From Pseudactinotalea suaedae (lineage in GTDB: Bacteria; Actinomycetota; Actinomycetes; Actinomycetales; Beutenbergiaceae), in NCBI RefSeq assembly GCF_009733815.1, contig NZ_WNXY01000005.1, forward strand, positions 124,001-188,000: a stretch of 64,000 bases of DNA, given 5' to 3'. This document shows positions 59,106-62,416 of this stretch, one piece after another. The stretch's first letter is position 1, and the number at the start of each line of letters is the position of its first letter. Below the pieces are notes generated by a model that made no database searches, was not told where the DNA came from, and saw only the letters and a program-made list of their open reading frames with translations. The position numbers and the translations under genes are program-made.

Positions 59106-59516
59106 ATGACCTCCGACGGCGGTGCGCCCCCAGCCGGGTTCCGGCCGGGTGCGTACGTGGTCGGGGTGGGCATCGACGTCGTGGACGTCACCCGCTTCAT
59201 GCTCGCGCTCGATCGGGCACCGCGGTTGCGCGAGCGGCTGTTCACCCCGCCCGAGCGGGACCTGCCCCCCAACTCGCTGGCCGCGCGGTTCGCGGCCAAG
59301 GAGGCCATCGCCAAGGCGCTGGGGTCGCCCGGCGGGATGCGGTGGCACGACTGCACCGTGCACCGCGTGCCCGGTGGCGCGCCGCGCGTGGAGATCGAGG
59401 GCACGGTGGCCGAGGTCGCCGAGCGGCTCGGCGTGACGCACTGGCACCTGTCGATCTCGCACGACGGCGGCATCGCCTCCGCGATCGCGGTCGCCAGCGG
59501 GGGTGGTGCCGCATGA
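59106..59516 (+). CDS. acpS: Holo-acyl-carrier-protein synthase
   Basis: Transfers the 4'-phosphopantetheine arm from CoA to ACP. The two metal-binding motifs are clear: G-I-D-V-V-D-V and F-A-A-K-E-A. 136 residues including a 17-residue non-conserved N-terminus. The stop overlaps nnr (ATGA). The placement near coaA links CoA and ACP supply. Confidence 0.93.
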
Positions 59517-61021
59517 TCCGCGGCTACCCCGCCGAGGCGATCCGGGCCGCCGAGGCACCGGCGCTCACAGCCGGTGAGCCGCTGATGCTGCGGGCCGCGG
59601 CGGCCGTGGCGCAGACCGTGCGGTCGCTGCTGCCGGACCCGAGCGCAGACACCGCGACGGACCCGGTGGTGCTGGTGCTGGTCGGCGGTGGCAACAACGG
59701 CGGTGACGGGCTGTTCGCGGCCGCGGACCTCGCGACGACGACCGAGGTGGTGGTCGCGCTCGTCAAGCCCGACGCGCACGACGCCGGCCTCGAGGCCGCC
59801 CGCGCGGCGGGGGTCGACATCCTCGACGTGAGCCGACCGGGAGCCGAGGGCTGGGAGGCACTGCTGGACGTCGCCGACCGTGCCGACGTCTGGGTCGATG
59901 CCCTGGCCGGCATCGGTGCGAGCGGTGCGCTGCGTGGGGCGGCGAGGGACGTCGTCGAGCGGCTGCGGCCGCTGGCCGACGCGGCACCGGTGCCGCCGAG
60001 AGTGGTCGCGGTCGACATCCCCAGCGGCGTCGACGCCGACACCGGCGCCGTGGCCGGCCCGGTGCTCGCCGCCGATCTCACGGTGACCTTCGGAGCCGCG
60101 AAGGCGGGGCTGCTGCTGCCACCGGGGGAGCGGCTCGCCGGTGAGGTGCAGGTGGTGACGCTGGGGCTGGAGGAGGCGATCGCCGCGCAGACGCCCGCGG
60201 TGGCCCGGTTGCTCGATGCCGATGTCACCGACCTCTGGCCGGTGCCCGGGGTCGCGGACCACAAGTACACGCGCGGCGTCGTCGGGGTGCTCGCGGGCTC
60301 GGAGGCCTACCCGGGCGCGGCGGTGCTGTGCGTCGGGGGTGCGCTGCGGACCGGCTGCGGCATGGTGCGTTACCTCGGACCGGCGCGAGCCGAGCAGCTG
60401 GTGCTGTCGCGGTGGCCGGAGGTCGTCACCGCGCCTGGCCGGGTGCAGGCATGGGTGGTCGGACCAGGCGTCGGGCCCGACGACGACCCCCGACGAGAGG
60501 AGATCACGGCGACGATCCAGGTGGCCGTGCGTGACGCCGTCGGGCTGGTCGTCGACGCCGGGGCGCTCGACCTGCTCCCCGCCGCCGAGGAGCTGAGCGA
60601 CGCGCGGGCGGTGCTGACGCCGCACGCCGGTGAGCTGGCGGCGTTGCTGGCCGGGCACGGCGAGGACGTCGAACGAGCCGACATCGAGACCGACCCGGGG
60701 CGCTGGGCCGCTCGGGCGGCCGAGCTGACCGGCGCGTGCGTGCTGCTCAAGGGTGCGACGACGGTCGTGGTCGCGCCCGACGGCGAGACCTACAGCCAGG
60801 CCGACGGAACCGGATGGATGGCCACCGCCGGGGCCGGCGACGTCCTCGCGGGCATCCTCGGCGCCCTGCTGGCCGGCCTCCCGGAGGTGCCGGTCGCGAA
60901 GGTGGCGGCACTGGCCGCCCTGGTCCACGGACGCGCGGGCCGCACCGCCAGCAACGGCGCCCCGATCACCGCCGGCGACATCGTCACCGCCCTCCCGGCC
61001 GCCCTCCGCCCCCTTCTCTGA
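59513..61021 (+). CDS. nnr: Bifunctional NAD(P)H-hydrate epimerase/dehydratase
   Basis: Repairs damaged NAD(P)H hydrates. The N-terminal epimerase domain (YjeF-N, residues 1-220) has [11 protein letters not shown]. The C-terminal ADP/ATP-dependent dehydratase (220-502) has [10 protein letters not shown] and the catalytic-site [14 protein letters not shown] 59513 overlaps the acpS stop. Its own stop abuts the repeat region. Confidence 0.94.
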
Positions 61022-61270
61022 TTTCAACGCACTTTCGACCAACACGGTTTCACCGCACTTTGTCGGGCTGACGTCTCGCCGTGCTTCGCGGGTGAGCGTC
61101 GTCGACGCGGGGTTCCGGTCGGCACAAGCACATCGGAGCAGCGGCGAACCGGCTCGGCCCAGAAGTGCGGTGAAACCGTGGATCGGTCGAAAGTGCGGTG
61201 AAAGCGAGGATCGGTCGAAAGTGCGGTGAAAGCGGGGGTAGGTCGAAAGTGCGGTGAAAGCGGGGGTGGG
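61022..61270. repeat. Intergenic 28-bp-periodic repeat with inverted copies
   Basis: Core AAGTGCGGTGAAA occurs at 61163, 61191, 61219 and 61247, exactly 28 bases apart, with GGTCG linkers. Inverted copies (TTTCACCGCACTT) lie at 61048-61060 and, with one change, at 61022-61034 directly after the nnr stop. About 100 bases without the motif separate the arms. The whole could fold into a large hairpin or bind a protein repeatedly. It is the only repeat of this kind noticed in the window. Confidence 0.9.
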
Positions 61271-61291: not shown

Positions 61292-62416
61292 GTGAGGTCT
61301 TTCCCGGCGCGGGCCACCGTCGACCTGGCGGCGATCCGCGCCAATGTCCAGCGGCTGCGTGAGTACGCCGGGGCCGCGGAGGTGATGTCGGTCGTCAAGG
61401 CCGACGCCTACGGGCACGGGCTGGTCCCGGTCGCCCGGGCGGCCCGGGAGGCCGGCGCGAGCTGGCTCGGCGTGGCCCAGCTCAGCGAGGCGCTCGCGCT
61501 GCGCGGCGCCGGGGACACCGGTCGGTTGCTCGCGTGGCTGTACGCGCCCGGCGCCGGGCTGGCCGACGTCGTCCGCGCCGACGTCGACCTCTCGGTCCCG
61601 GCGTCGTGGGCGCTCGCCGAGGTGCGCGCCGCCGCCGCCGAGGTGGGCAGGCCGGCGCGGGTCCACCTCAAGGTCGACACGGGCATGGGGCGGGGCGGGC
61701 AGTTCCTGCCCGAGTGGTCCGCGCTGCTGCACGAGGCCGTCGTGGCGCAGCAGGAGGGTCTGGTCGAGGTGGTCGGCGTCTGGTCGCACCTCGCCCGCGC
61801 CGACGAGGTCGACCACCCGAGCGTGCGCGCGCAGCGCGACGTCTTCGACGAGGCCGTCCGCCTCGCCGAGGCCGCCGGAGCCCACCTCGAGGTGCGCCAC
61901 CTCGCCAACTCCGCCGCCACCCTGACCGAGCCGGCGGTGCACTACGACCTGGTCCGTCCCGGACTCGCCACCTACGGGCTCTCCCCGCTGCCGGGCACCG
62001 AGCCCAGCCGCCTCGGCCTGCGCCCGGCGATGCGCCTGGAGGCCCGGCTCGCGCTCGTCAAGCGCGCGCCGGCAGGCCAGGGCGTCTCCTACGGGCACAC
62101 CTACACGACCCGCACCGACACCCAGCTCGCCGTCGTCCCGCTCGGCTACGGCGACGGCGTGCCACGCCACGCCAGCAACGCGGCCGAGGTCCAGGTCGGT
62201 GGCCACCGCTACCGCATCGCCGGCCGGGTCTGCATGGACCAGCTCGTCCTCGACATCGGCGAGGCGAGCGCGGTCGCCGGTGACCGCGTGGTCCTGTTCG
62301 GCCCCGGCGACGACGGCGAGCCCACCGCAGCCGAGTGGGCCGAAGCCGTCGGCACCATCAACTACGAGATCGTCACCCGGGTGGGCGCCCGGGTGCCGCG
62401 GGAGTACCTCGGATGA
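61292..62416 (+). CDS. alr: Alanine racemase
   Basis: PLP-dependent enzyme making D-alanine for peptidoglycan. The PLP lysine is in V-V-K-A-D-A-Y-G-H-G, and the catalytic tyrosine in G-V-S-Y-G-H-T-Y. GTG 61292 gives 374 residues starting M-R-S-F-P-A-R-A-T-V-D-L. An in-frame GTG at 61226 lies within the repeat array and would add 22 odd residues. tsaE overlaps its stop. Confidence 0.96.
   Translation: MRSFPARATVDLAAIRANVQRLREYAGAAEVMSVVKADAYGHGLVPVARAAREAGASWLGVAQLSEALALRGAGDTGRLLAWLYAPGAGLADVVRADVDLSVPASWALAEVRAAAAEVGRPARVHLKVDTGMGRGGQFLPEWSALLHEAVVAQQEGLVEVVGVWSHLARADEVDHPSVRAQRDVFDEAVRLAEAAGAHLEVRHLANSAATLTEPAVHYDLVRPGLATYGLSPLPGTEPSRLGLRPAMRLEARLALVKRAPAGQGVSYGHTYTTRTDTQLAVVPLGYGDGVPRHASNAAEVQVGGHRYRIAGRVCMDQLVLDIGEASAVAGDRVVLFGPGDDGEPTAAEWAEAVGTINYEIVTRVGARVPREYLG

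Follow-up and report, generated by a model that had tools for sequence, protein, structure and literature searches.

The nearest described parallels to the repeats reported here are the REP and REPIN sequences with their RAYT enzymes, in which short intergenic repeats occur in inverted pairs and are matched by type to an enzyme gene flanked by its own repeat. An account of P. fluorescens SBW25 describes three REPIN types, each of which also lies beside its own single-copy RAYT gene (PMC3116915), and another account lists, among the features of REPs, a terminal tag that reads GTAG or CGTC (PMC3733652). Free-standing homing endonucleases provide a second parallel, EDxHD being named as a homing-endonuclease class (PMC3943268). 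The repeats reported here share features with both of these groups, and they resemble MITEs and foldback (FB) elements in having inverted terminal repeats. In FB elements, which are eukaryotic, the inverted termini are themselves built of short tandem repeats and enclose a loop that varies.

The window, a 64,000-nucleotide stretch of a 4.54 Mb genome (G000), contains an intergenic array between nnr and alr, made up of four direct units that face two inverted units (Table 1). The initial annotation had described four direct copies at exact 28-base spacing and two inverted copies around a 100-base centre, beginning at the nnr stop and ending before alr; the direct spacing, the centre and the placement are all borne out, and both inverted copies are present, although one of these is imperfect and the pair is spaced by 26 bp and not 28. 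Tandem Repeats Finder (TRF) reports positions 61163-61265 as a repeat of period 28 with 3.7 copies and 93% matches, and the inverted repeats of the window lie between the arms, not inside a single unit.

Table 1. Features of the nnr-alr array and its neighbours, as positions in the window.
Feature	Position	Strand	Remarks
nnr	59513..61021	+	neighbour, outside the element; named as in the initial annotation; probable start 59513 by reading, open frame from 59342; the stop, 61019-61021, is directly adjacent to the left arm
Left arm, two inverted units	61022..61061	-	first unit 61022-61035, with one mismatch; second unit 61048-61061, exact; spacing 26 bp
Loop	61062..61161	no strand	100 bp
Right arm, four direct units	61162..61265	+	28-bp period
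Right-arm 14-mer cores	61162-61175, 61190-61203, 61218-61231, 61246-61259	+	spacing 28, 28, 28; first core has one mismatch to the 14-mer AAAGTGCGGTGAAA and an exact 13-mer, the other three are exact
alr (alanine racemase)	61292..62416	+	downstream neighbour, outside the element; probable start GTG 61292

The array is one member of a dispersed family. The genome-wide count of the 13-mer AAGTGCGGTGAAA that the initial annotation proposed gives 60 exact copies in G000, grouped into 22 clusters (reversed-pattern control, 0), and the array is thus not the one-off slippage product, with no other genomic copies, that the annotation had named as the alternative. G000 has 42 copies of the 14-mer, Actinotalea caeni JCM 30447 has 80 and the third Actinotalea genome searched (G001) has one; the remaining 36 of the 39 genomes searched, G000 included, have none. 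The 28-bp spacing separates neighbouring units of this subfamily (subfamily 1) in 62 of 71 cases in G000 and in 103 of 112 in A. caeni. Linkers within an arm are more alike than those between arms in G000 (0.72 versus 0.51), so local tandem duplication does occur; but slippage without function, scarcely conceivable as the whole story, is refuted as a full explanation by the inverted arms and the dozens of dispersed copies.

The 9-mer AAGTGCGGT has five matches in the window, every one of them in the array (mean 0.28 and maximum 2 in 100 shuffles), and this 9-mer is identical to the core of the Haemophilus DNA uptake sequence. That sequence has more than 1000 dispersed copies, whereas the repeats here are few, clustered and phased, and belong to a distant high-GC organism of the genus Actinotalea; we therefore dropped an uptake sequence of the Pasteurellaceae type, and the shared 9-mer is probably a coincidence.

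Units are present on both strands at 17 of the 21 G000 loci and 23 of the 28 A. caeni loci fetched, and nearly all of these two-strand loci are ordered as in the window, with minus-strand units, a loop and then plus-strand units, such that the units point outward; the rule is broken at L093 and L151, and the other loci have one arm only. The shortest loops measure about 10 bp and the longest exceed 1 kb. Strong homology between the loops of different elements is restricted to those that code for a nuclease (described below), with a few short or weak matches elsewhere; BLAST matches the window's loop to none of the nuclease-coding loops and to none of the others compared. The conserved portion of the unit spans approximately 22-24 bp in the unit profile, which we infer to be a protein footprint. 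By reading, the innermost units of many A. caeni arms belong to a common type (..GGCAA-GAAGTGCGG or close to it), whereas their outer units belong to a second type (..TGTTGC-AAAGTGCGG), as though entire arms had been copied from site to site. We note also that L072 (G000:C15:223240-223412) is a mixed array, with a subfamily-3 unit 28 bp from a subfamily-1 unit within one arm.

Arrays often begin 0-20 bp downstream of a stop codon. In an automatic test that misses some gene 3′ ends, nnr's included, a 3′ end lies no more than 60 bp from one or both edges at 36 of 45 sites in G000 (both edges at 13) and 25 of 42 in A. caeni (both edges at 5), compared with 153 of 3000 random 150-bp intervals of G000, one of them at both edges; automatic 5′-end calls are noisy and were left out, and the gene caller mis-ends some open reading frames. 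The earlier suggestion of a protein-binding array controlling alr can be no more than half correct: the units do resemble protein sites, but dozens of loci near other genes carry them, and alr is therefore not the point.

The proximity to stop codons could also be explained if the arms pair in RNA as a bidirectional hairpin that stops transcription from convergent genes. The window strand folds well (-133 kcal/mol, z = -6.9), in keeping with the large RNA structure considered in the initial annotation, and at L110 in G001 a simple inverted pair reaches both stop codons. In G000, however, there is no covariation between the arms: the two arms share the same G/T variant at core position 9 in 13 of 32 units paired inner-to-inner and in 15 of 32 paired outer-to-outer, against a permuted mean of 0.54, in 11 G000 elements that exclude L078 and L097, where the paired arms seem to be separate elements (8.1 and 3.6 kb apart; 14 of 35 and 16 of 35 with the doubtful L078 included), and linkers between the arms of one G000 element are no more alike (0.51) than those of different elements (0.51). 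The arms of single A. caeni elements are slightly more alike than permuted ones (0.641 versus 0.610, fraction 0.04, n = 20 elements), a marginal excess to which L085, with its two nearly identical arms, contributes. Loops of over 1 kb also speak against a hairpin, as does the scarcity of elements: 400 kb of contig C13 contain 29 called convergent gaps of 400 bp or less but only two sites of subfamily 1 and one array of subfamily 3. We consider the hairpin unlikely and have rejected an RNA hairpin by design, while termination may be a side effect. No Rfam family matches at its gathering score, the only hit being MIR839, for which 37.4 bits were obtained and the gathering score is 200.

The fuller versions of the element are more informative. 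The locus L062, in the same genome and with the same unit as the window array, has a gene in its loop, and the loops of its A. caeni orthologue L103 and of a second A. caeni element, L145, encode homologous proteins. These have an N-terminal match to AbiEi_4 (1.7e-7 in L103, 1e-7 in L145, only 0.46 in L062) and a C-terminal match to DUF559, a curated family of unknown function (5.3e-9, 4.4e-6 and 8.2e-5 in the three proteins). A family search adds a second close copy from G000 (L244) and two copies from another genus (L231 and L232), and all six genes lie within inverted arrays; PADLOC AbiEi models match L062, L145 and L244. The four copies from Actinotalea score 426-554 bits, whereas the best score in G001, only 48 bits, amounts to no close nuclease. 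A profile of seven homologues matches 3hrl, an 'Endonuclease-Like Protein', in the PDB (E 4.7e-6) and, weakly, 3r3p, a 'Mobile intron protein' (E 0.1), and residues E196, D228, E239, D241 and H246 are invariant across the seven, which would presumably fit a restriction-like or EDxHD active site. The loop protein is a probable DNA-cutting enzyme of AbiEi-like plus DUF559 architecture. A single-sequence AlphaFold model was unusable (mean pLDDT 40). Horizontal carriage is unproven, since no homologues of the L244 protein were found on plasmids or phages. We also note TCCACA boxes, which we take to be DnaA-box-like, upstream of the nuclease genes (for example L062 2364-2526 and L244 1332-1494): they are present in seven of the seven first-set nucleases, with two boxes about 26-28 bp apart in six, and in 14 of a further 17 examined, six of which have two boxes, compared with 66 of 2000 random 240-mers.

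Each nuclease keeps company with its own repeat. The L244 arrays are built of a 28-bp unit, AATCGTGTTGAAACC (motif 3), those of L145 of a 29-bp unit, AAGTGGGTTGAAACC, and those of L231 and L232 of 41-43-bp units. Motif 3 has 71 matches in G000, the genome with L244, in arrays that are often directly past stop codons, but none in A. caeni and two in G001, both without a close L244 copy (control, 0). Motif 1 is abundant in G000 and A. caeni, the holders of L062 and L103, and allowing the motif-2 base raises the count from 133 to 176 (+43) in A. caeni, which alone of the three has the L145 nuclease, leaving G000 (128) and G001 (36) unchanged; the reversed motif-1/2 control gives 0-1 matches except in A. 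caeni, where its 23 matches are probably due to the motif resembling its own reverse. There are thus three repeat subfamilies in the three Actinotalea genomes, each with a nuclease gene flanked by its own arrays. In the other genus (g7) the match is looser than in Actinotalea, with 31 and 23 matches to the L231 unit in the two nuclease-bearing genomes (control, 0) and 0-11 in six genomes without a close nuclease (11 each in G020 and G021).

Alternatively, some other transposase might move the non-autonomous copies, the nuclease gene being cargo between the arms, and arms do surround unrelated genes, encoding a LacI-type regulator at L108, a glyoxalase-like protein at L100 and, by reading only, a carbohydrate-kinase-like protein at L063. 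This is hard to square with the four Actinotalea nucleases and the other-genus homologues all lying in arrays with matched units, or with a screen for the RAYT Y1 transposase family (Y1_Tnp, PF01797), which was negative in all three genomes of the genus and positive in 5 of 14 control genomes by the same search; we regard it as very unlikely. The parent of a MITE would be a transposase-coding element with the same terminal inverted repeats; the parent with matched arms seen here has a gene for a DUF559 protein and not for a recognised transposase.

Sites were also compared between genomes. Twelve orthologous sites, three of them recognised by one flank only, were found among the 45 G000 and 42 A. 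caeni sites fetched (A. caeni motif-2 loci being only partly fetched), and the subfamily is the same at seven and different at five; this rests on the dominant label together with reading of the arrays, as labels m1 and m2 cross-match and G000 GTTGAAACC units carry label m2. The nnr-alr site is one of the five, with subfamily 1 in G000, the nuclease-bearing subfamily 2 (L145) in A. caeni and a short apparent remnant in G001 (L166); no array was seen upstream of alr in the other-genus genomes read on the correct strand. Of two G000 sites of subfamily 3 that were examined, one is unoccupied in G001 as well as in A. caeni, and the second is empty in A. caeni and has a different insert in G001 (L333, about 1336-1500). 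The empty sites in relatives favour gain of these two arrays in G000, and support the earlier suggestion of a mobile-like intergenic repeat, as do the dispersed family and its gene-bearing versions. No target-site duplication is visible at the two sites compared, where flanks are only about 76-89% identical. The insert in G001 has terminal inverted repeats of its own, GTCTCCCAGCTCC..GGAGCTGGGAGAC.

These observations also bear on the proposal that the arrays are operators or chromosome-organising sites of a regulator, either the AbiEi/DUF559 protein or another, that are kept by function, with the nuclease gene as one regulated locus. A protein-site-like footprint at fixed phase and the 12 sites common to G000 and A. 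caeni would be expected of operators; placement mainly at gene 3′ ends, sites that are empty in relatives, differing subfamilies at 5 of the 12 common sites and the far lower copy number in G001 would not, and we consider the proposal quite unlikely.

We think it reasonably probable that the array between nnr and alr belongs, as a non-autonomous copy, to a selfish repeat system associated with a nuclease. The element would consist of two arrays of protein-binding-like units of about 22-24 bp, usually outward-pointing, around a loop, with fuller copies holding the AbiEi-like plus DUF559 nuclease gene and each nuclease subfamily having its own unit sequence and period. The N-terminal part of the nuclease would bind the units, and the enzyme would nick or cut there or close by; with a different copy as repair template, the arrays would then be spread, replaced and homogenised, and they may pile up harmlessly directly past stop codons, often between convergent genes. 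The sequences themselves show the dispersed family, the geometry of its arms, nuclease genes lying within arrays, the joint occurrence of unit and nuclease in three genomes, sites without arrays in relatives and shared sites with differing subfamilies; binding, cutting and a causal role of the nuclease in mobility we infer, and the nuclease could instead be a passenger. By analogy, we favour a logic like that of REPINs and RAYTs with a homing-like chemistry, that is, nuclease-driven spread and overwriting. Unlike RAYTs, the enzyme is unrelated to the Y1 HUH transposases, and the units stand in tandem with a phase of 28/29 (or 41-43) bp; those of Actinotalea are not palindromes. The restriction-enzyme-like domain recalls free-standing EDxHD/Vsr-like homing endonucleases, but the gene lies outside any intron or intein and is flanked by dispersed arrays, and many sites are gene-less. 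MITEs and FB elements differ in that no known transposase was identified here; nor was a target duplication seen at the two sites compared.

Homologues are not confined to these genera. Across the order, at least 30 of 396 genomes, in at least 19 of 109 genera, have a homologue at E<=1e-30 (lower bounds, with six candidates scored per genome). In other families the homologues often have inverted units that are their own. Of 55 nuclease loci, 41 were testable for inverted similarity of their flanks, five being duplicates and nine cut by contig ends, and 16 of the 41 exceed a score of 18.5, compared with none of 480 random intervals, drawn from six genomes of the family with G000 among them, and none of 24 alr loci; the remaining 25 do not, including L233 at 14.5. 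Seven of the 41 supplied the query alignment and were chosen after their flanks had been seen; without them 10 of 34 pass. The flanks of L263, L266 and L268, from other families, are palindromic on either side. In 400 kb scanned of G218, a hand-picked genome of another family, there are 21 matches to the L279 nuclease's unit, in four clusters (control, 0), two flanking the gene and the others about 15 kb and about 269 kb away, and the unit of a second nuclease lies only beside its gene.

More tentatively, and at slightly short of even odds in our judgement, there may be a widespread, undescribed class of selfish systems in the Actinobacteria, in which an AbiEi-DUF559 homing-type nuclease is paired with its own dispersed, phased arrays of recognition sites; the arrays would serve as ends, landing sites and non-autonomous offspring, and subfamilies of new specificity would invade and overwrite older sites, as at nnr-alr. 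We found no description of such a nuclease-repeat system, and nothing joining DUF559 with inverted repeats and transposition, in the open-access literature searched. If the proposal is correct, DUF559-type proteins gain a job, REP-like repeat populations have arisen twice, on the second occasion with an unrelated enzyme, enzymes and targets of diverging specificity become available as matched pairs, and there is a testable case for intergenic repeats overwriting one another at fixed sites.

Two more distant DUF559 relatives, L241 and L248, are also flanked by tandem arrays, of 22 bp and 31 bp respectively, with inverted similarity scores of 62 and 19.5.
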